Shown piece by piece: positions 33,307 through 42,042 of a stretch of DNA of 64,000 nucleotides. A model generated the notes under the pieces. That model saw only the letters and a list, made by a program, of their open reading frames with translations, was not told the origin of the DNA and searched no databases. A program made the translations under genes and the position numbers. Where the stretch lies: assembly GCF_022662105.1 (NCBI RefSeq), contig NZ_JAKMCP010000006.1:1-64000 (forward strand), read 5' to 3'. How positions within the stretch are numbered: position 1 is the first letter of the stretch; each line of letters starts with the position of its first letter. Source of the stretch: Aestuariivivens sediminis (GTDB lineage: Bacteria > Bacteroidota > Bacteroidia > Flavobacteriales > Flavobacteriaceae).

Positions 33307-33900
33307 TTACTTATGCCTTGTTTTTAATTCCGCTTCAATATCCTTTAAAGTAAACCCTTTAGCTTGCAGTAACATAAGATAATGGAATAGTAGGTCGGCC
33401 GATTCGTATAAAAACAAGTCGTCGTTATTATTCATCGCTTCAATAACGGTTTCCACAGCCTCCTCTCCTACTTTTTGTGCCACTTTATTGATGCCTTTAG
33501 CAAATAAACTGGCCACGTAAGATGTTTTGGTATCGCTATTCGCAACGCGTTCGGCTATAATTTCTTCTAAGGTTGAGAAAAAACCATATGTGGCCTTATT
33601 ATCTTCGCCCCAGCAGTTATCGGTTCCTTTATGACAGGTGGGTCCCGTTGGATTGACTTGAACCAGAAGGGTATCCTTATCACAATCATTTGCAATACTT
33701 ACCAGATGTAACACATTACCGCTTTCTTCACCTTTAGTCCATAAGCGTTGCTTGCTTCTGCTAAAAAATGTTACTTGTTTTGTTTCAATAGTCTTTTGGT
33801 ACGCTGCTTCATTCATATACCCTAACATTAATACTGTTTTGGTTACGGCATCCTGAATGATTGCAGGTACCAATCCCTTGGAATCGTATTTTATTTTCAT
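33307..33900 (-). CDS. hisIE: Bifunctional phosphoribosyl-AMP cyclohydrolase / phosphoribosyl-ATP pyrophosphatase
   Basis: 197 residues from ATG at 33900 (a GTG 18 bases upstream is less likely). HisI domain 1-~105: 'SRSKQRLWTKGEESGNVLHL', 'DCDKDTLLVQV', and metal-binding Cys in 'PTCHKGTDNCWG'. HisE domain ~110-197: 'KGINKVAQKVGEEAVETVIEAMNND' and 'ESADLLFHYLMLL'. It catalyses steps two and three of histidine synthesis. Last gene of the his operon, 141 bases after hisF. Confidence 0.95.
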   Translation of the reverse strand: MKIKYDSKGLVPAIIQDAVTKTVLMLGYMNEAAYQKTIETKQVTFFSRSKQRLWTKGEESGNVLHLVSIANDCDKDTLLVQVNPTGPTCHKGTDNCWGEDNKATYGFFSTLEEIIAERVANSDTKTSYVASLFAKGINKVAQKVGEEAVETVIEAMNNNDDLFLYESADLLFHYLMLLQAKGFTLKDIEAELKTRHK

Positions 33901-34041
33901 AATTCTATTTTGTTCCACATTTCCACTACCCCATTGGATAGACTAAAAGTCGGAATCTATAATTTAAATTCTATTTATTTGGTTTCCGATTGCACACCGG
34001 AATTCTCTCGGAGTACTCAGCACAATAATAAGAGATAACCA

Positions 34042-34797
34042 TTACAGTCTAACCTCAATATTGTGAGCTTTTAATTCATGTTTTAATTCAAAAATAGGGA
34101 TTTCTCCAAAATGAAACACACTTGCTGCCAATGCGGCATCCGCTTTACCTTCCTTAAAGGCATCAATAAAATGTTGCACATTTCCTGCCCCCCCCGATGC
34201 AATGATAGGTATGTTCAACTTGGCTGACAATTGTGCCAGTGCCCTATTGGCAAAACCATTTTTAGTACCATCGTGGTCCATGGAGGTAAATAATATTTCG
34301 CCGGCACCACGTTGTTCAACCTCTTTGGCCCATTCGAATAAATCTATTTCTGTGGGAATACTTCCACCGGCTAGGTGTACTTTCCAATCCCCATCAATTT
34401 GCTTGGCATCAATGGCAACCACGACGCACTGGCTTCCAAATTTATCCGCGAGTTCATTAATCAGTTCAGGGCGTTTAACAGCCGATGAGTTAATAGAGAC
34501 CTTATCCGCACCACATTTTAATAGCGCATCTACGTGTTCGACACTCGAAATACCACCGCCAACCGTAAAGGGTATATTAACCTGCTCCGCTACATGTAAT
34601 ACCATATCCAACACTGTTGCTCGTTCCTCTAATGTTGCCGATATATCTAAAAAAACAAGTTCGTCTGCTCCACGTTCGGCATATTGCTTTGCGAGAGCCA
34701 CCGGATCACCGGCATCGCGTAAATCCACAAAATTAACGCCTTTTACGGTACGTCCGTTTTTAATATCTAAACAAGGTATAATTCGTTTTGTTAACAT
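34042..34797 (-). CDS. hisF: Imidazole glycerol phosphate synthase, cyclase subunit
   Basis: 251 residues, standard length. TIM barrel with catalytic Asp in '[17 protein letters not shown]' and 'VVVAIDAKQ', and phosphate-binding 'GGGISSVEH' and '[11 protein letters not shown]'. It uses ammonia from HisH to close the imidazole ring and releases AICAR. 88 bases after hisA. Confidence 0.96.
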
Positions 34798-34884
34798 TGA
34801 TTTATTTTAATGTTACTATATCTTATGAAAGGTCAAAATAATGTATTATGCATACTAAGGACTCTATTCTTTCATAGGTCACGT

Positions 34885-35619
34885 TCAAATGAATTTTTCT
34901 AATTGTTTTAAACTGATTCTATTCTCATAAATGGCTTTTCCAATAATAACACCTTCACAACCTATGTCCTTCAAAACAGGTAATTCATCAATATCGGAGA
35001 TGCCCCCAGAAGCAATAAGTTTAATGGATTGATCACTACTACTGTTGGTACATTCTGCGATAATTTGCTGATACAATGTTACAGAGGGCCCCTGAAGCAT
35101 ACCGTCCTTTGAAATATCAGTACAGATAACATATTGAACACGCTTCTTTTGATAGGATTTTATAAATGGAATCACATCCTCTGTACTTTGTTCTTGCCAG
35201 CCACTAATGGATATTTTACCATGATCGGTATCGGCCCCCAAAATAATTTTTGCGGTTCCGTATTTTGCGATCCATCCTTCAAAGGTTTTGGGATCATTGA
35301 CTGCAATACTGCCGCCTGTAATCTGCCTGGCACCCGAATTAAAGGCAATGTGCAGATCTTCATTGGTTTTTAAACCACCACCAAAATCAATCTTTAAATT
35401 CGTCTTTGAAGCAATTTGTTCCAAAACTTTATAATTGACTATATGCTGAGCTTTGGCTCCATCCAGGTCTACCAAATGCAAATACTGAATCCCCGAATCC
35501 TCAAATGCCTTTGCTATTTCCAAAGGATTTTCACTATAAATTTTTTTTGTACCGTAATCCCCTTTGGTTAAACGAACACACTTCCCCTCAATAATGTCTA
35601 TGGCCGGTATAATTCTCAT
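34885..35619 (-). CDS. hisA: ProFAR isomerase
   Basis: 244 residues. '[20 protein letters not shown]' with the catalytic Asp, '[11 protein letters not shown]', '[13 protein letters not shown]' and '[13 protein letters not shown]' mark the HisA half-barrel repeats. It performs the Amadori isomerisation of ProFAR. Follows hisH by 57 bases. Confidence 0.96.
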
Positions 35620-35676
35620 ATGTTATGTCTCTTTAGGCCTCTTTGGTTTTTATTGCCTCAAAGGTCTCAATTTATA

Positions 35677-36282
35677 TTATAGTTCCAGGAAGTTTTTTAA
35701 AATTCTTTCTCCTGCCACACTGCTCTTTTCCGGGTGAAATTGTACGCCATAAAAGTTTTCATGCCGTAATGCAGAGGCATAATTTATGTCATAATCGGTT
35801 GCCGCTATGGTTTCATCACAATGTTCAGCGTAATAACTGTGCACCAAGTACATATACTCGTTTTCTCTAATCCCTTTGAATAAATCCGATTTTAAATTTT
35901 TTATAACGTTCCATCCCATTTGGGGAACCTTCACCGAATTGGAAAATCGTTTCACCTTAGTTTGAAATATCCCCAACCCATTGGTATGCCCTTCTTCGGT
36001 ATGCAGACACATCAATTGCATGCCCAAACATATCCCCAATACCGGTTGCTTGAGGGATGGTATTAATTTGTCCAATTGACTTTCTTTAAGCATAGTCATG
36101 GCAGAACGTGCTTCGCCTACGCCAGGAAAAATAATTTTATCAGCTAATTTAATTTCCTCGGGATTCTTGGATAAAACGGCATCATATCCCAAACGATTAA
36201 AGGCAAATTGTATACTTTTAATGTTACCTGCACCGTAATCTATAATGATTAATTTCAATTTAATAATATTAAAGTTAGACAT
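35677..36282 (-). CDS. hisH: Imidazole glycerol phosphate synthase, glutaminase subunit
   Basis: 201 residues from the ATG at 36282; a TTG eight codons later, just before 'LIIIDYGAGN', would give the more usual N-terminus. The glutaminase triad is present: nucleophile Cys in 'LGICLGMQLM', and His/Glu in 'GVQFHPEKS'. It supplies ammonia to HisF. Lies 50 bases after hisB. Confidence 0.95.
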   Translation of the reverse strand: MSNFNIIKLKLIIIDYGAGNIKSIQFAFNRLGYDAVLSKNPEEIKLADKIIFPGVGEARSAMTMLKESQLDKLIPSLKQPVLGICLGMQLMCLHTEEGHTNGLGIFQTKVKRFSNSVKVPQMGWNVIKNLKSDLFKGIRENEYMYLVHSYYAEHCDETIAATDYDINYASALRHENFYGVQFHPEKSSVAGERILKNFLEL

Positions 36283-36332
36283 TATAAGTAAAAGGATTTA
36301 AACCTTTACACTTGTTGTATATACTATTTACC

Positions 36333-37478
36333 TTATAACATTCCTTTGGTACTTGGCAAAAACATCTTATTGGCATCTCTCTTTACGGCCATTTTGATGG
36401 CTTTGGCAAAGGCCTTAAATATGCCTTCTATTTTATGGTGCTCGTTGGTGCCTTCTGCTTTTATATTTAAATTGCACTTAGCCCCATCGGCGAAAGATTT
36501 AAACAAGTGGAAAAACATTTCTGTTGGCATATCCCCTATTTTCTCCCGTTTGAATTCGGCATCCCATTCTAACCAATTTCTTCCGCCAAAATCTACTGCG
36601 ACCTGGGCGAGGCAGTCATCCATGGGCAAACAAAACCCATAGCGTTCTATTCCCAGCTTATTACCCAATGCTCTGTGAAACAATTCCCCTAAAGCAATCA
36701 TGGTATCTTCTATGGTATGGTGCTCATCGACCTCCAAATCGCCCGTAACCTTGATAGTTAAATCCATGGCACCATGACGTCCTATTTGGTCCAACATATG
36801 ATCGAAAAATGCCAGTCCTGTACTAATATTATTTTGTCCTGATCCATCCAGGTTTAGTTTAATATAAATCTGGGTTTCATTAGTATTTCGAGTTATCTCA
36901 GCCACGCGATCCTTTAGTTTTAAAAACTCATAGACCTTTGCCCAGTCAGTCGTAGTAAGTACAATGTGGTCCAAAATGTCCGGTCTGGAGGACTCTATTT
37001 CATTGGAGCCCACACCTGTCTTTTCATTTTCTGATAAAAGGATACCTTTTGCTCCCAAGTTTTTGGCCAGTTCCATATCGGTAATTCGATCCCCTAAGAC
37101 ATATGAATTTGCAAGATCATAATCTTTTGAAAAATAGTGGTTCAACATTCCTATCCTTGGTTTTCGTGTTGGTGCATTGTCTTCAGGTAGCGATCTATCT
37201 ATGTGAATTGCCGAGAATACCACCCCTTCTTTGGCTAATGCATCAATGATTTTATTATGTGCAGGCCAAAAGGTATCCTCCGGAAACAGCTCAGTTCCCA
37301 GTCCATCTTGATTGGTAACCATAACTAATTCGTAATCCAATTCGCTGGCAATTTTTGCCATATATTGAAATACTTTGGGGTAAAACTCCAATTTTTCCAA
37401 ACTGTCTAATTGATAATCCACAGGTGGTTCTAAAACCAATGTGCCATCCCTGTCTATAAACAATACCTTTTTACTCAT
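36333..37478 (-). CDS. hisB: Bifunctional histidinol-phosphatase / imidazoleglycerol-phosphate dehydratase
   Basis: 381 residues. HAD-type phosphatase domain 1-~170: '[14 protein letters not shown]', '[10 protein letters not shown]' and '[19 protein letters not shown]'. IGP dehydratase domain ~185-381: '[16 protein letters not shown]', manganese-binding '[15 protein letters not shown]' and '[19 protein letters not shown]'. This fusion is as in enterobacteria and is common in Bacteroidota. Preceded by a 128-base gap with a strong hairpin. Confidence 0.96.
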
Positions 37479-37559
37479 TATTTTAATTTCTGTCTCGACT
37501 GTTGCTATAAATTAACTCCAGCAAAGGTCGTTTTTTAATACTCATTTATGTTTGTTTGG

Positions 37560-37600
37560 ATTCGGCATGAACCGCGAAGGTTACAATGATTATGCCGAAT
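37560..37600 (-). other. mRNA hairpin between hisC and hisB
   Basis: ATTCGGCAT and ATGCCGAAT make a perfect 9-bp stem (37560-37568 and 37592-37600). An inner AACC/GGTT stem with a UUCG-like loop appears on the minus-strand transcript. No T-run follows, so it is not a terminator; it may protect or cut the polycistronic mRNA. Confidence 0.55.
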
Positions 37601-37606
37601 AGCCCA

Positions 37607-38644
37607 TTAACTTAATTCATGTAATGCTGTAATTAATGCTTTATTTTCATTGGCAATGCCAACGGTAAACCGTAAACAATTTTCGCAACCGGGCTGGGTC
37701 GATCTATTCCTAACCACTATACCCCTTTCAACTAACTGATGATATCGCATTGTAGCATCGTCTACCTTGACAAGTACAAAATTGGCATCCGTAGGATAAA
37801 CTTTAGTTACGAAAGAAATTTTATGCAACTCGTCGATTAATCGGTCTCTTTCATTTAAGATGGATTTAATTTGTTGCTCAGTCAAGGTTCTATTCTCTAA
37901 CTGCTCTATGGCTCTTTGTTGTGTTAACTCATTCACGTTATATGGAGGCTTAATGGTATTCAATACTGAAATAATGATTTTGGAAGCGTAACATATACCC
38001 AGTCGAATGCCGGCCATTCCGTATGCTTTGGATAAAGTTTGTGTAACAATTAAATTGGGATATTCGTTTAATCTGTTAATCCAACTGGGCTGTAACGTAA
38101 AGTCAATATATGCCTCATCTATAACCACAATACCTTGAAAGTTTTTGATTAATCTCTCTATGGATTCTGGTGAAAAACTATTCCCGCTAGGATTGTTAGG
38201 AGAACATAAGAATAAGAGTTTGCTATTCACATCAGCCATGGTCAAAATTTTGTCAACCTGTGGTTGAAAATCTTTGGTTAACGGCATTTCCTTTATGGCC
38301 ACGGCATTGATATTAGCCAATACACCGTACATGCCATAGGTAGGTGGTAAGGTAATAATATTATCCTTGTTGGGCTCACAAAACGCTCTGAATATTAAAT
38401 CCAACACTTCATCACTTCCATTTCCTAAAAGAATATGGTCTTGAGAAAGCCCTTTTAGTTCAGATAAAAGGGTTTTAACACGTCTCTGTAAGGGATCTGG
38501 GTACCGATTAACACCATTTTCAAATGGATTCTCATTGGCGTCTAAAAACACCATATTCTCTTTAAAACCTTGAAATTCATCTCTGGCCGACGAATACGGT
38601 TTAAGGTTTTTTATGTTAGGTCGTATTAAATCTAGAACATTCAT
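37607..38644 (-). CDS. hisC: Histidinol-phosphate aminotransferase
   Basis: 345 residues. PLP-dependent fold type I: 'LLGNGSDEVLDLIFRAF', 'FLCSPNNPSGN', 'VVIDEAYIDF', and the PLP Lys in 'TQTLSKAYGMAGIRLG'; the Arg of 'CLRFTVG' binds substrate phosphate or carboxylate. Converts imidazole acetol phosphate to histidinol phosphate. 64 bases after hisD. Confidence 0.95.
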   Translation of the reverse strand: MNVLDLIRPNIKNLKPYSSARDEFQGFKENMVFLDANENPFENGVNRYPDPLQRRVKTLLSELKGLSQDHILLGNGSDEVLDLIFRAFCEPNKDNIITLPPTYGMYGVLANINAVAIKEMPLTKDFQPQVDKILTMADVNSKLLFLCSPNNPSGNSFSPESIERLIKNFQGIVVIDEAYIDFTLQPSWINRLNEYPNLIVTQTLSKAYGMAGIRLGICYASKIIISVLNTIKPPYNVNELTQQRAIEQLENRTLTEQQIKSILNERDRLIDELHKISFVTKVYPTDANFVLVKVDDATMRYHQLVERGIVVRNRSTQPGCENCLRFTVGIANENKALITALHELS

Positions 38645-38708
38645 TTGTTTATCATTAATATGCCAGGATCACAATTAAACAAGCAACGTGTTATGATTGA
38701 GCATGGCA

Positions 38709-39995
38709 TTATTTTTTTAAATCCTTTAATCGGATGCTTACTGCATTTTTGTGCGCTTGCAAGCCTTCTGCTTCGGCCATTAGCTCAATAGTTTTTCCTA
38801 TATTTAAGATACCTTCTCTGGAAATTTTTTGAAAGGTCATACTCTTTAAAAAACTATCCAAATTAACTCCGGAATAGGCTTTACTAAATCCGTTAGTCGG
38901 TAAGGTATGGTTCGTTCCGGAAGCATAATCTCCTGCACTTTCAGGTGTGTAATCCCCAATAAAAACCGATCCTGCATTTATAATGCCATTAACAAAAAAC
39001 GCTTCATTTTTACTACATATGATAAAGTGTTCGGGGCCATACATATTAATCAATTCTAATGCGGTATTATCGTCTTCAACATAAATTAACTTAGAATTTG
39101 AAATGGCCTGTTCTGCAATATTCCGTCTTGACAACACCTGAAGTTGCGTCTGTATCTCCTCTGAGACCATGGCGATCATGTCTTTAGACGTAGACACTAA
39201 AATTACCTGGCTATCAGCACCATGTTCGGCCTGACTCAACAAATCCGAAGCAATAAAACCAGCATTTGCATCCTTATCGGCGAATACTAAAAGTTCACTC
39301 GGACCTGCAGGCATGTCTATGGCTACCCCATATTTTGTTGCTAACTGTTTAGCGACAGTAACAAATTGGTTTCCAGGTCCGAAAATTTTATAGACTTGCG
39401 GTATACTTTCAGTGCCAAAGGTTAGTCCAGCTATCGCCTGGATACCTCCAATTTTAAATATTTTTGTGACGCCACAGAGGCTGGCAGCATATAATATCTC
39501 TGGGGCTAACTTTCCCGATTTGTTTGGTGGAGAACACAATATAATTTCCTTACAGCCCGCAAGTTTAGCCGGAATGGCTAACATTAGAACGGTTGAAAAT
39601 AATGGTGCCGTTCCTCCTGGGATATATAACCCAACACTTTCGATAGGCCTTTTTTCCTGCCAGCAACGCACCCCCACTGTTGTTTCTATATCAATGGTTT
39701 GCGTTCTCTGAGCTGCATGAAATAATTCTATGTTTTGTTTTGCCCTTTTAATGGCGGTTTTTAGCGCTTCTGAAATCGTTTTAGAGGCTTCTTCAATGTC
39801 ATGAAGAGAAACTAAATTATCCTGTATAGTGACACCATCAAATCGTTCCGTGTAGTTTCTAACGGCCCTGTCTCCATATTCCTTTACATCCATAAACACT
39901 TCGTTTACAACCCCTTCTATATCGTCAATGGTTTGTGTTGGACGCTTCAAAATATCCGCCCAATTTACTTTATTTGGATTATCAATTATTTGCAT
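38709..39995 (-). CDS. hisD: Histidinol dehydrogenase
   Basis: 428 residues from the ATG at 39995, the usual HisD length; a longer frame reaching 40085 would overlap hisG. 'IYIPGGTAPLFSTVLMLAIPAKLAGC', 'GPGNQFVTVAKQLA', 'DMPAGPSELLV' and the zinc/catalytic region 'LLSQAEHGADSQVILV'. Oxidises histidinol to histidine in two NAD-dependent steps. 62 bases after hisG. Confidence 0.95.
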   Translation of the reverse strand: MQIIDNPNKVNWADILKRPTQTIDDIEGVVNEVFMDVKEYGDRAVRNYTERFDGVTIQDNLVSLHDIEEASKTISEALKTAIKRAKQNIELFHAAQRTQTIDIETTVGVRCWQEKRPIESVGLYIPGGTAPLFSTVLMLAIPAKLAGCKEIILCSPPNKSGKLAPEILYAASLCGVTKIFKIGGIQAIAGLTFGTESIPQVYKIFGPGNQFVTVAKQLATKYGVAIDMPAGPSELLVFADKDANAGFIASDLLSQAEHGADSQVILVSTSKDMIAMVSEEIQTQLQVLSRRNIAEQAISNSKLIYVEDDNTALELINMYGPEHFIICSKNEAFFVNGIINAGSVFIGDYTPESAGDYASGTNHTLPTNGFSKAYSGVNLDSFLKSMTFQKISREGILNIGKTIELMAEAEGLQAHKNAVSIRLKDLKK

Positions 39996-40057
39996 GGTTT
40001 TAATTTTAAGAAAAACAGGGAATGGCTTACTACAAGGTGACAGCAGTTCATCATATA

Positions 40058-40915
40058 CTAAAGTACCATTTTTTCTATTGGACACACTAAAATGCCTTGC
40101 GCTCCTTTATCCTTTAATTCATCAATAACATTCCAAAACTCATTTTTACTAATTACGGAGTGTACAGAGCTCCAACCTTCCTCAGCTAAAGGCAAAACCG
40201 TTGGACTTTTCATTCCGGGTAAAACACTTATGATATCCTTGAGTTTATCATTGGGTGCATTGAGCAGAACATATCTCGAATTCCTGCCTTTTAAAACTGA
40301 CTGGATTCTAAACTGTATGGTTCTTAAAATCGCTTTCTTTTCTTCACTTAATACCGGTGATACAGCAAGTACTGCTTCCGATTTTAATATCGTTTCAACT
40401 TCTTTAAGGTTGTTTTTAAATAAGGTACTTCCACTAGAAACAATATCACAAATCGCATCGGCCAAACCAATATTTGGTGCAATTTCCACCGAACCGTTGA
40501 TAATATGCAGATGGGCATTAACGCCTTGCTTTTCTAGAAAGCGTTGAACCGTAACCGGGTAAGATGTTGCTATACGCTTGCCCTCCAAATCCTTTATATT
40601 GCCATATTTTACGGATTTAGGCACGGCAATACATACCCTACATTTCGAAAACCCCAGTTTTTCAGCGATACCAATACCTTCTCCCTTTTCTATTAACACA
40701 TTTTCCCCAATAATGGCAGCGTCCACAACACCATCCTTCAGATATTGGGGGATATCACCATTTCTTAAATAAAACACTTCTACCGGAAAATCCCTTGCGG
40801 AAGCTTTTAACTGGTCTTTACCATTATCAATGGATATACCAATATCCTTTAAAATTTGCATGGAGTCTTCATTTAGACGTCCGGATTTTTGAATTGCAAT
40901 TCTTAATTTACTCAT
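40058..40915 (-). CDS. hisG: ATP phosphoribosyltransferase (long form)
   Basis: 285 residues: catalytic domains ~1-205 ('IAIQKSGRLNEDSM', 'RIATSYPVTVQRFL', 'DAICDIVSSGSTL') plus a C-terminal ACT-like domain ('YVLLNAPNDKLKDIISVLPGMKSPTV') for feedback inhibition by histidine. This is the first and committed step. The gene is first in the operon and lies behind the attenuator described at 40964-41078, so it is controlled both by translation of a His-rich leader and by allosteric inhibition. Confidence 0.96.
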   Translation of the reverse strand: MSKLRIAIQKSGRLNEDSMQILKDIGISIDNGKDQLKASARDFPVEVFYLRNGDIPQYLKDGVVDAAIIGENVLIEKGEGIGIAEKLGFSKCRVCIAVPKSVKYGNIKDLEGKRIATSYPVTVQRFLEKQGVNAHLHIINGSVEIAPNIGLADAICDIVSSGSTLFKNNLKEVETILKSEAVLAVSPVLSEEKKAILRTIQFRIQSVLKGRNSRYVLLNAPNDKLKDIISVLPGMKSPTVLPLAEEGWSSVHSVISKNEFWNVIDELKDKGAQGILVCPIEKMVL

Positions 40916-40963
40916 TTTTCTATTTGTTATGAGTTTGAAACAATCGGGTTAAGTTTTTAAATG

Positions 40964-40994
40964 AAAAACCCGCTTGATTGTCTCAAACGGGTTT
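40964..40994 (-). terminator. Attenuator terminator in the his leader
   Basis: On the minus strand AAACCCG (40988-40994) pairs with CGGGTTT (40966-40972), extended by an inner TTGA/TCAA, and is followed by a run of five T (40964-40968, partly shared with the stem). It lies 30 bases after the leader-peptide stop codon and about 50 bases before hisG. Confidence 0.8.
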
Positions 40995-41039
40995 ATAAAT
41001 ATCTTGATTTTATTCAATACATTTTCACTTCGCCTGAGA
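40981..41039 (-). promoter_or_regulatory. Antiterminator pairing of the his attenuator
   Basis: TCTCAGGCG (41031-41039), within the last codons of the leader peptide, can form nine consecutive pairs (seven Watson-Crick, two G-U) with CGTTTGAGA (40981-40989). The latter takes away the end of the left terminator arm. The two structures exclude each other. A third arm downstream (40933-40945) could also pair with 40976-40988. Confidence 0.7.
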
Positions 41040-41078
41040 GCAAATTTGAAAATGATGATGTGTTAGAATAAAATTCAT
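41025..41078 (-). CDS. hisL: his operon leader peptide
   Basis: ATG at 41078 opens a 17-codon frame MNFILTHHHFQICSQAK ending in TGA. Three consecutive CAT codons (7-9) are the regulatory His codons. A ribosome waiting there for charged tRNA-His leaves the 3' end of the frame free to form the antiterminator; a ribosome that reaches the stop codon covers it, and the terminator forms. The gene lies 109 bases before hisG on the same strand. The name hisL is given by analogy with enterobacteria; the sequence itself is unrelated. Confidence 0.8.
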   Translation of the reverse strand: MNFILTHHHFQICSQAK

Positions 41079-41226
41079 ATTAAATTTTGAGCTACAAATA
41101 TCTATAATTAATCCTTAAATAACCAAATAAAATAGGTCAAATTTAATAATATTAGAAATTCAACATTTTTTTTATTGCATTTTTACCTAAAACGCAACAG
41201 AATTCTAATATCATTAAAATTTTAAT

Positions 41227-42042
41227 TTATTGATTTCCCAGAATAATGGGTAAACCACTATCACCAGAACCAATAACGACAACTTTGCTATTGGGTGACT
41301 CCGCTAATTTTATTGTGGCCTCTATACCTTTGTCCTGTAAAATTTTATCGGTTAAAGAAGCGCTTAATATCCGGTTGGCATCCGCTTTTCCTTGTGCTTC
41401 AATAATTACTTTTTCTGCCTCCTTGGCCGCCGTAACCAACCTAAATTCGTATTCTAATGATTCTTGTTCTTGTTTTAACTTACGCTCAATAGCCTCCTTA
41501 ATGGTTGGTGGAAGGGTGACATCCCGAACTAAAACTTCATTAAGCTGCACATATTGCTTTTCTAAAATCTTTTTTGTTTCTACAAAAATCTCATCTTGAA
41601 TGGCATCCCGCTTACTAGAATACAATTGTTCCGGCGTATAGCGACCGACCACACTTCTTGCTGCACTTCTAATTGCAGGTTGAATAACACGTTGCAAGTA
41701 GTTCTCACCTAAAGTTTGATGCAGATTACCTAAATCCTGGTAAACGGGTTGATACCAGGCAGAAGCATCAATTTGAATTTCCAATCCATTGGATGACAAT
41801 ACTTTCATTTTTTCAAAAAGTTCCTGTTGACGTACTTCGTAAACATAAACCTTATTCCACGGGGCGACAATGTGAAACCCTTCCCCTAAAGGATCCTTAT
41901 CGGTTACAACACCCCCTCCAAAGGTTTTGTAAAGTACCCCTGCTTCACCGGATCCTATGGTTACAGCAGATTTTGACAGTATAATAACAAGTACTATGAC
42001 TCCAATTATAAAAGGTAGTGCAATTTTTGGTAATTTTTCCAT
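41227..42042 (-). CDS. Prohibitin-family SPFH-domain membrane protein
   Basis: 271 residues. One N-terminal membrane segment ('IALPFIIGVIVLVIILSKSAV'), then the SPFH/Band 7 domain ('GSGEAGVLYKTFGGGV', 'PWNKVYVYEVRQQELFEKMKVLSSNGLEIQID'), and a coiled-coil C-terminal part ('LKQEQESLEYEFRLVTAAKEAEKVIIEAQGKADANRIL'). Prohibitins form ring assemblies that scaffold membrane proteases and microdomains. Follows the VWA gene by 13 bases, so probably co-transcribed. Confidence 0.9.
   Translation of the reverse strand: MEKLPKIALPFIIGVIVLVIILSKSAVTIGSGEAGVLYKTFGGGVVTDKDPLGEGFHIVAPWNKVYVYEVRQQELFEKMKVLSSNGLEIQIDASAWYQPVYQDLGNLHQTLGENYLQRVIQPAIRSAARSVVGRYTPEQLYSSKRDAIQDEIFVETKKILEKQYVQLNEVLVRDVTLPPTIKEAIERKLKQEQESLEYEFRLVTAAKEAEKVIIEAQGKADANRILSASLTDKILQDKGIEATIKLAESPNSKVVVIGSGDSGLPIILGNQ

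Follow-up and report, generated by a model that had tools for sequence, protein, structure and literature searches.

A very probable His-codon attenuator ahead of the his operon in Bacteroidota, with a fifth pairing strand before hisG in Flavobacteriales

The stretch of DNA analysed here, 64,000 nucleotides long and referred to as the window, carries a complete his operon (hisG, hisD, hisC, hisB, hisH, hisA, hisF, and hisIE, assigned with NCBIfam models at their curated cut-offs) downstream of a short open reading frame with a run of His codons. This raises the question of whether entry into the operon is controlled by translation of that frame. A sequence-only reading of the same DNA had proposed classical His attenuation in a flavobacterium. 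The description of the host is correct at the family level, given that the nearest named hisG among the matches listed, in a scan from which the window's own genome or very close ones may have been omitted, is that of Aestuariivivens marinum, with 91% identity. The elements identified are collected in Table 1.

Table 1. Features of the his operon and of its upstream region in the window.
Feature	Positions	Strand	Basis
hisG, first gene of the operon	40058..40915	(-)	TIGR00070, E 7.4e-55
hisD, hisC, hisB, hisH, hisA, hisF, hisIE, remaining his operon	33307..40085	(-)	NCBIfam match for each, above curated cut-off
Candidate promoter: TTTGG (41127-41123), 19-nt spacer after TTTG, TAGATATTTG (41104-41095)	41095..41127	(-)	Boxes shared with part of the relatives
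Leader peptide ORF MNFILTHHHFQICSQAK-TGA, 17 codons, three tandem His codons (CAT CAT CAT)	41025..41078	(-)	Read in the sequence; His leader in close relatives
Strand 1, lower part, CATTTTCA (last His codon, Phe codon, CA), pairs with 41027-41020	41047..41054	(-)	Alignment columns 37/59
Strand 1, upper part, TTTGCT, pairs with 41034-41029 (GGCGAA)	41039..41044	(-)	41044-41029 is the best covarying column pair
Strand 2, 5' strand of the antiterminator, TCTCAGGCG, within the end of the leader ORF	41031..41039	(-)	Shuffle and permutation tests
3' side of the 1:2 protector (GGCGAA and TGAAAATG, with the stop codon)	41020..41034	(-)	93.5% of cells paired, 13 pairs, 79 distinct sequences
Small hairpin (TTGA/TCAA) between leader and terminator; possible pause or spacer hairpin	41000..41021	(-)	95.7% of cells paired
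Intrinsic terminator, 12-bp stem and U-run (strands 3 and 4)	40963..40994	(-)	99.3% of cells paired; compensatory changes 40991/40969, 40992/40968
Strand 3, 3' strand of the antiterminator, CGTTTGAGA, common to the 5' arm and loop of the terminator	40981..40989	(-)	Shuffle, folding, and permutation tests
Strand 5, GATTGTTTCAAAC, pairs with 40988-40976 (upper terminator arm and loop), 17 nt ahead of the hisG ATG	40933..40945	(-)	Shuffle, covariation, and permutation tests

The leader was found exactly as the sequence-only reading had described it, and the conservation of its His run, which that reading had named as a check, was examined among relatives. The close set consists of the best 80 loci of a HisG scan with at least 80 matches, one of which (L013) is without upstream DNA. 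An ATG leader with a His-rich stretch is found upstream of hisG in 79 of the remaining 79 loci and in the window, with a length of 15-18 codons in the close loci when the shorter in-frame start is taken, and nearly all of them have the leader end and terminator in common. An open reading frame with at least three His in eight residues occurs in 80 of the 80 close upstream regions (79 loci and the window), compared with 1 of 80 reverse complements and 2.1% of dinucleotide shuffles. It is clear that the observation is confirmed and lies far beyond chance.

The distribution of the element was explored with a covariance model (R1) built from the close-relative sequences. In a family survey independent of hisG, with one genome per genus, 126 of 159 genomes have a match at E<=1e-6, and in the order survey 105 of 296 genomes match at E<=0.01; among the genomes listed in the latter, those of the family number 49 with a match and 1 without, the list leaving off 171 genomes that had no match. 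The leader is found on 65 of 67 model hits in the order set and 106 of 107 in the family set, counts that are not independent given that the model itself contains the leader, and for two order matches (L147, L152) no hisG lies within the fetched stretch. For the phylum sample, HisG was the sole criterion (113 of 128 genomes matching), which makes it independent of the leader. The 69 of its 113 loci that were examined are not a random selection, being the 29 top matches that follow the window's own genome and 40 picked from the remainder, and 7 of the 69 duplicate loci of the order set. The four sequence sets overlap, and of the 323 upstream ends that they contain together, 311 are distinct. 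His leaders occur in 48 of these 69 hisG loci, a few of them doubtful (in L201, L204, and L208 the His codons are scattered in long frames, and the leader may be spurious), whereas the same criterion is satisfied by 2 of 69 reverse complements and 3.0% of shuffles. All 48 belong to the 54 loci whose hisG is at least 39% identical to that of the window (L156-L209), and no His leader was found in the 15 phylum loci whose hisG is divergent, at 26-35% identity (L210-L224). Leader and hisG type, therefore, seem to travel together. Because loci beyond the order of the window, and also beyond its class, carry the leader, His attenuation with the logic known from E. coli and an unrelated sequence would be widespread, and probably old, in Bacteroidota.

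The leader is followed by an intrinsic terminator, for which the sequence-only reading had given the stem AAACCCG/CGGGTTT. The hairpin and its U-run are present, and the reported stem is too short: it has 12 pairs, AAACCCGTTTGA (40994-40983) with TCAAGCGGGTTT (40977-40966), around a GACAA loop, and a folding energy of -16.5 kcal/mol. Three of the 12 pairs show changes on both sides in the alignment, and a hairpin with a U-run is found in all 79 close loci and in the window. At a threshold of -6 kcal/mol, no terminator was found in 13 phylum loci that have a His leader (L178, L180, L182, L184, L185, L188, L189, L194, L200, and L202-L205), which possibly have a weaker terminator or a translational version of the control. 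Weak AT-rich hairpins with a T-run can be seen by eye in L184 and L188.

The nine-pair antiterminator proposed earlier, formed by strands 2 and 3, is likewise present, 12 nt after the last His codon. In the window, its energy is -13.5 against a shuffle mean of -6.5, better than all 200 shuffles, and the corresponding pairing reaches p<=0.05 against shuffles in 74 of 80 close, 56 of 65 order, and 32 of 35 phylum loci. Within Flavobacteriaceae the antiterminator is nearly invariant, with 96.4% of cells paired, and by two of the five measures it exceeds shuffles only weakly (13/500 and 33/500); for this reason it is the distant relatives that decide. In these the sequence can be wholly different and yet complementary, as in L175 (GGGTAAGC/GCTTACCC), L176 (GGGCAGGTGG/CCACTTGCCC), and L187 (GAGCCGGG/CCCGGCTT). 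When strands were swapped among 22 loci outside Flavobacteriales, the cognate mean was -14.95 versus -10.73 for permuted strands, a mean cost of 4.2 kcal/mol that none of 2000 permutations abolished by equalling the cognate value. With all sets combined, which have 144 distinct terminator arms, the values are -13.54 and -10.94, again equalled by 0 of 2000 permutations. The cognate strand 2 ranks within the best 10% for only 32 of these 144 arms because most Flavobacteriales have one common core. As judged by comparison, the antiterminator is mutually exclusive with the terminator and under selection, and its strands are seen to change in step with the terminator across unrelated sequences. In one close relative (L064, 1322-1369) the leader ends three codons early, with a TAA replacing a Gln codon within strand 2; despite the early TAA, pairing of strand 2 is still possible via a U-G pair.

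Two hairpins come in addition to the elements of the sequence-only reading. The first is the 1:2 protector (41054-41020), where alignment columns 37/59 are C-G in 39, U-A in 27, U-G in 2, and unpaired in 11 of 79 rows, tracking a TGA or TAA stop, and where the pair 41044-41029 is C-G, U-A, or A-U among relatives. Over the whole helix, 80 cells are changed on both sides versus 25.2 in shuffles; pairs with a double change number 5 versus 3.6 (matched by 57 of 500 shuffles), and pair types 14 versus 12.6 (59 of 500). From these alignments, a protector hairpin that includes the regulatory codons is present and covarying, and the resulting four-strand anatomy is fuller than had been stated. The second is the small hairpin at 41021-41000, in which one pair has 16 double changes and 16 unpaired cells.

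Covariation of the helices among relatives, another check that had been named, was assessed with a tree-aware test in the style of R-scape, in which a G-test with average product correction is compared with a null where the parsimony changes of each column are re-placed on the tree. The first test used 110 distinct sequences, with 34 of 145 dropped (33 for a long stretch between terminator and hisG, and 1 for another terminator), and its two best column pairs are 41044-41029 in 1:2 (E=0.04) and 40981-40940 in strand 5 (E=0.05). The second test used 186 distinct sequences and dropped those with more than 66 nt (41) or less than 33 nt (13) from terminator to hisG, as well as 4 with another terminator, 3 without a leader, and 2 without a terminator. 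Its six best column pairs all fall in proposed helices, one in 1:2, two in strand 5, and three in the terminator. The pair 41044-41029 alone lies below 0.05 (E below 0.005, with none of 200 null simulations reaching it); for strand 5 the best pair has E=0.38, and the remaining top pairs have E of at least 5.

The effect of the ribosome on the exchange of these helices was explored by predicted folding. For window RNA ending with strand 3, the predicted fold is 1:2 without a ribosome and 2:3 when the A-site occupies any one of the His codons, whichever of the three it is; a ribosome with its A-site at the stop codon is predicted to leave the RNA unstructured. Together with the geometry of the leader, this agrees with the earlier claim that strand 2 is free when the ribosome is stalled on the His codons and covered when it reaches the stop. 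Among 249 Flavobacteriales leaders, a stalled ribosome gives upstream pairing of strand 3, by the lenient criterion of at least 6 nt, in all 249; with the ribosome at the stop the number is 54, and in its absence 121. For the 244 distinct sequences the numbers are 244, 53, and 120. Shuffled spacers gave 866 of 1245 when stalled and 726 of 1245 at the stop, and by these predictions real leaders switch more sharply than chance, under a criterion that is lenient. The predictions also place a limit on the protector, which is not decisive in all members, given that without ribosome strand 3 is kept free in 128 of the 249 and is paired upstream in the other 121. Once strand 4 is added, the window is predicted to fold into the terminator in every ribosome state, and with the A-site on the second His codon the minimum-energy fold contains the terminator in 244 of 244 distinct sequences and the antiterminator in 1. 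Antitermination would therefore have to be kinetic, with 2:3 forming first and lasting long enough. Such kinetic precedence of the antiterminator is the usual explanation of attenuators.

Taken as a whole, it is very probable that a ribosome-mediated transcription attenuator couples transcription of the his operon to charged tRNA-His. The conserved His run and the helices that covary among relatives support the proposal of classical attenuation; comparison shows the parts and their co-evolution, and the dynamics are modelled on those of known attenuators. When histidine is scarce, the leading ribosome would stall on CAT-CAT-CAT and mask the lower part of strand 1, and strand 2 would stay free; 2:3 would form once strand 3 emerges, the terminator would be delayed, and RNA polymerase would enter hisG. 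With ample histidine, the ribosome at the stop codon would mask strand 2, and the pairing of 3:4 would lead to termination. In an untranslated leader 1:2 would pair, which in about half of the members would also leave strand 3 available to the terminator. Flavobacteriales would have one further pairing, that of a fifth strand, once transcribed, with strand 3 and the terminator loop.

The candidate promoter was chosen with what we take to be the Bacteroidota promoter consensus, and its boxes sit upstream of the leader, between it and the upstream open reading frame 41227-42042, which lies on the same strand as hisG. A promoter-like pair (TTTG and TA-N2-4-TTTG, with a spacer of 16-24 nt) occurs in 35 of 108 upstream regions versus 1.8% of shuffles, with a spacer of 19 nt in 26 of the 35, and by this pattern it is absent from 73 of the 108. 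A promoter nearer 41139-41165 was also considered and dropped, the boxes common to relatives being those at 41127-41095.

The sequence-only reading had also pointed to a third arm just before hisG, which could add a translational layer. The arm (strand 5) is real and forms 13 bp with the upper terminator arm and loop, with an energy in the window of -17.9 versus a shuffle mean of -5.3, better than all 200 shuffles. It reaches p<=0.05 against shuffles in 66 of 80 close and 56 of 64 order loci, and in 10 of 34 phylum loci. The latter divide by order: it is found in 10 of 13 Flavobacteriales and was undetected in 21 of 21 loci from outside Flavobacteriales, all of which have leader and terminator. 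From this comparison, strand 5 is confined to Flavobacteriales among the loci tested. It was undetected also in L003, L009, L048, and L078, which have extra DNA between terminator and hisG. The insert in L003, L009, and L078 has short inverted repeats.

Because relatives have common ancestry, the comparison of cognate with foreign arms is the stronger test. The cognate strand-5 arm ranks within the best 10% for 145 of 229 sequences, and over 73 distinct loops the cognate pairing averages -12.4 kcal/mol versus -8.25 (SD 0.27) for permuted arms, with 0 of 2000 permutations equal to it. At columns 40981-40940 the tree has 33 and 34 changes, 13 of them on the same branch, and 8 of those lead from one pair to another. 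A strong 3:5 duplex (-11 or better) is present in 183 of 231 loci, where its difference from 3:4 has a median of -0.5 kcal/mol and 3:5 is the better of the two in 103; in the window 3:5 is better by 2.7 kcal/mol, and the free fold of the window with the first 30 nt of hisG keeps the terminator and not 3:5. The comparison indicates that the 3:5 pairing is real and balanced, with a putative function. A start-codon hairpin (ACTCAT/ATGAGT) that appeared in folds of the window was set aside; its CTCAT is present in 21 of 79 close loci.

Of the translational layer, what stands is that evolution has kept the 3:5 pairing. In the median locus the helix stops 16 nt short of the hisG start (10th-90th percentile 14-25 nt) and would, therefore, overlap only partially with an initiating ribosome. 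Most likely, strand 5 tunes the translation or the stability of hisG in read-through RNA, and the chance that it does so translationally comes close to even. The wider proposal, in which the Flavobacteriales his attenuator is a five-strand switch with two outputs and strand 3 chooses among 2:3, 3:4, and 3:5, is tentative and stands at somewhat below an even chance. If true, one ribosome-stalling signal would set both read-through and hisG expression, in cis or in trans via the released leader RNA. The fifth strand in this respect offers a concrete suggestion, open to test, of how an attenuator could have a second output.

Several other explanations bear on these strands. It is rather unlikely that strand 5 has no translational role and that the 3:5 helix instead serves to protect or process the hisG mRNA at its 5' end, for instance as a ribonuclease III site: the conserved pairing and position, the end of the helix well ahead of the start codon, and the near-equal energies of 3:5 and 3:4 would all suit it, but no result here favours cleavage, and the distance to the start codon is fairly constant, which points to a connection with initiation. 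Improbable, too, is an action in trans of the terminated leader RNA, whose terminator loop would pair with strand 5 of a read-through hisG mRNA. One complementarity could serve both cis and trans, and the attenuator-derived rnTrpL of Sinorhizobium is reported to act in trans in the available part of PMC7298713; nonetheless, proximity favours pairing in cis. Control of hisG that is purely translational, with hairpins gating the start and termination being incidental, would draw on the position of strand 5 shortly before the start and on its co-evolution with strand 3 and the loop, but is made very improbable by the absence of a detectable strand 5 from the 21 loci outside Flavobacteriales and by the U-run hairpins of every close locus. 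Finally, a constitutive terminator that insulates hisG from the upstream gene, next to a fortuitous His-rich frame, is scarcely credible: the terminator is strong, wins the equilibrium folding, and follows a same-strand frame, but the His runs far exceed those of shuffles, the antiterminator strands track the terminator across the phylum, and promoter-like boxes lie between the upstream frame and the leader.

Attenuation of the his operon by ribosome stalling is a known mechanism, here well supported by comparison, and the fifth strand is a new feature. Coupled attenuation requires that the ribosome on the leader follows RNA polymerase closely. In Bacteroidota, translation is generally considered to start mostly without Shine-Dalgarno pairing, and the his operon is, therefore, a clean test of the coupling of transcription and translation there. 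The E. coli his leader has seven His codons, and we know of no fifth strand before hisG in the enterobacterial his attenuator (RF00514). The window differs from that attenuator by its shorter His run and by having no Rfam match: a scan of the window gave no family at its threshold, His_leader (RF00514) was unmatched even at E up to 10, and the sole leader family listed was Trp_leader at chance level (E=1, 16.4 bits versus a threshold of 41). This agrees with the earlier statement that the sequence is unrelated to the enterobacterial leader. The Bacteroid-trp RNA motif (RF01692), which we take to be a Trp leader, belongs by name to another operon and has no match to the window. Like the window's element, it is likely cis-regulatory and from Bacteroidetes (Table 1 of PMC2864571, as far as that source was available). 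Likeness to the enterobacterial system lies in the leader peptide with a His run and in the alternative antiterminator and terminator before hisG (PMC9413887, in part). According to the same partial text, His attenuators are described in Proteobacteria and three Firmicutes lineages; those of Firmicutes share with the window a short peptide with three to five His codons and an antiterminator and terminator before his genes, and differ in phylum and in that no fifth strand is described in that part of the source.

For Flavobacterium psychrophilum, the available text of PMC9723704 gives strong indications of attenuation by leader peptides ahead of amino-acid operons and names a 5' element of hisG, found also in other Flavobacteriaceae genera and without Rfam hits, which probably is the element of the window. 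Flavobacterial leader-peptide attenuation and a conserved element 5' of hisG have, therefore, already been briefly noted there, and the idea of the sequence-only reading is not entirely new; the portion of that text available is without anatomy, covariation, phylum range, or fifth strand. In the accessible parts of two further sources, attenuation is named once, for E. coli and Salmonella, in a work on the his genes of the superphylum (PMC8305728), and leader-like small open reading frames are mentioned for Bacteroides thetaiotaomicron (PMC7366714). No description of the five-strand layout was found in the accessible literature that was searched. Two comparative surveys, Vitreschak 2004 and Lopatovskaya 2010, reportedly touch Bacteroidetes, and for this reason the element cannot be presented as the first His attenuator of the phylum. 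The core of the system is no surprise, in a lineage for which Rfam has no model; the puzzle posed by the extra strand is a clean one, and a model could be built from these alignments, as was done for R1.

Other loci of the same genome were inspected for similar leaders. A second copy of the attenuator was considered and rejected, the other model matches being the opposite strand of the window's own terminator, a site antisense to hisC, and a hairpin that ends another gene; one further match, at E=7.24, was not counted as a second attenuator. No upstream ATG frame with two Trp in ten residues was found at a trpE-like gene (L332). Directly ahead of pheA (PF00800), the reverse complement of L334 (1355-1414) has an aromatic-rich leader, MTTTVFYTYYNNWFYFFFS, followed by a terminator, which from its sequence is probably a Phe/Tyr attenuator; a pheA 5' element is also named for F. 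psychrophilum in the available text of PMC9723704. About 300 nt before ilvD, the reverse complement of L337 (1029-1091) has an Ile/Leu/Val-rich leader, MNRQRLHIISLIVLVVRSRH, and a terminator. Upstream of a thrA-like gene (815-aa frame), L338 (1324-1514) has a short open reading frame ending in FVTTTIITTPWGC and, by eye, a GTGATT/AATCAC hairpin followed by a T-rich run. The end of this leader is, presumably, much like that of the E. coli thr leader, and its ATCACAAC can pair with GTTGTGAT of the hairpin, which is the same design as at hisG.
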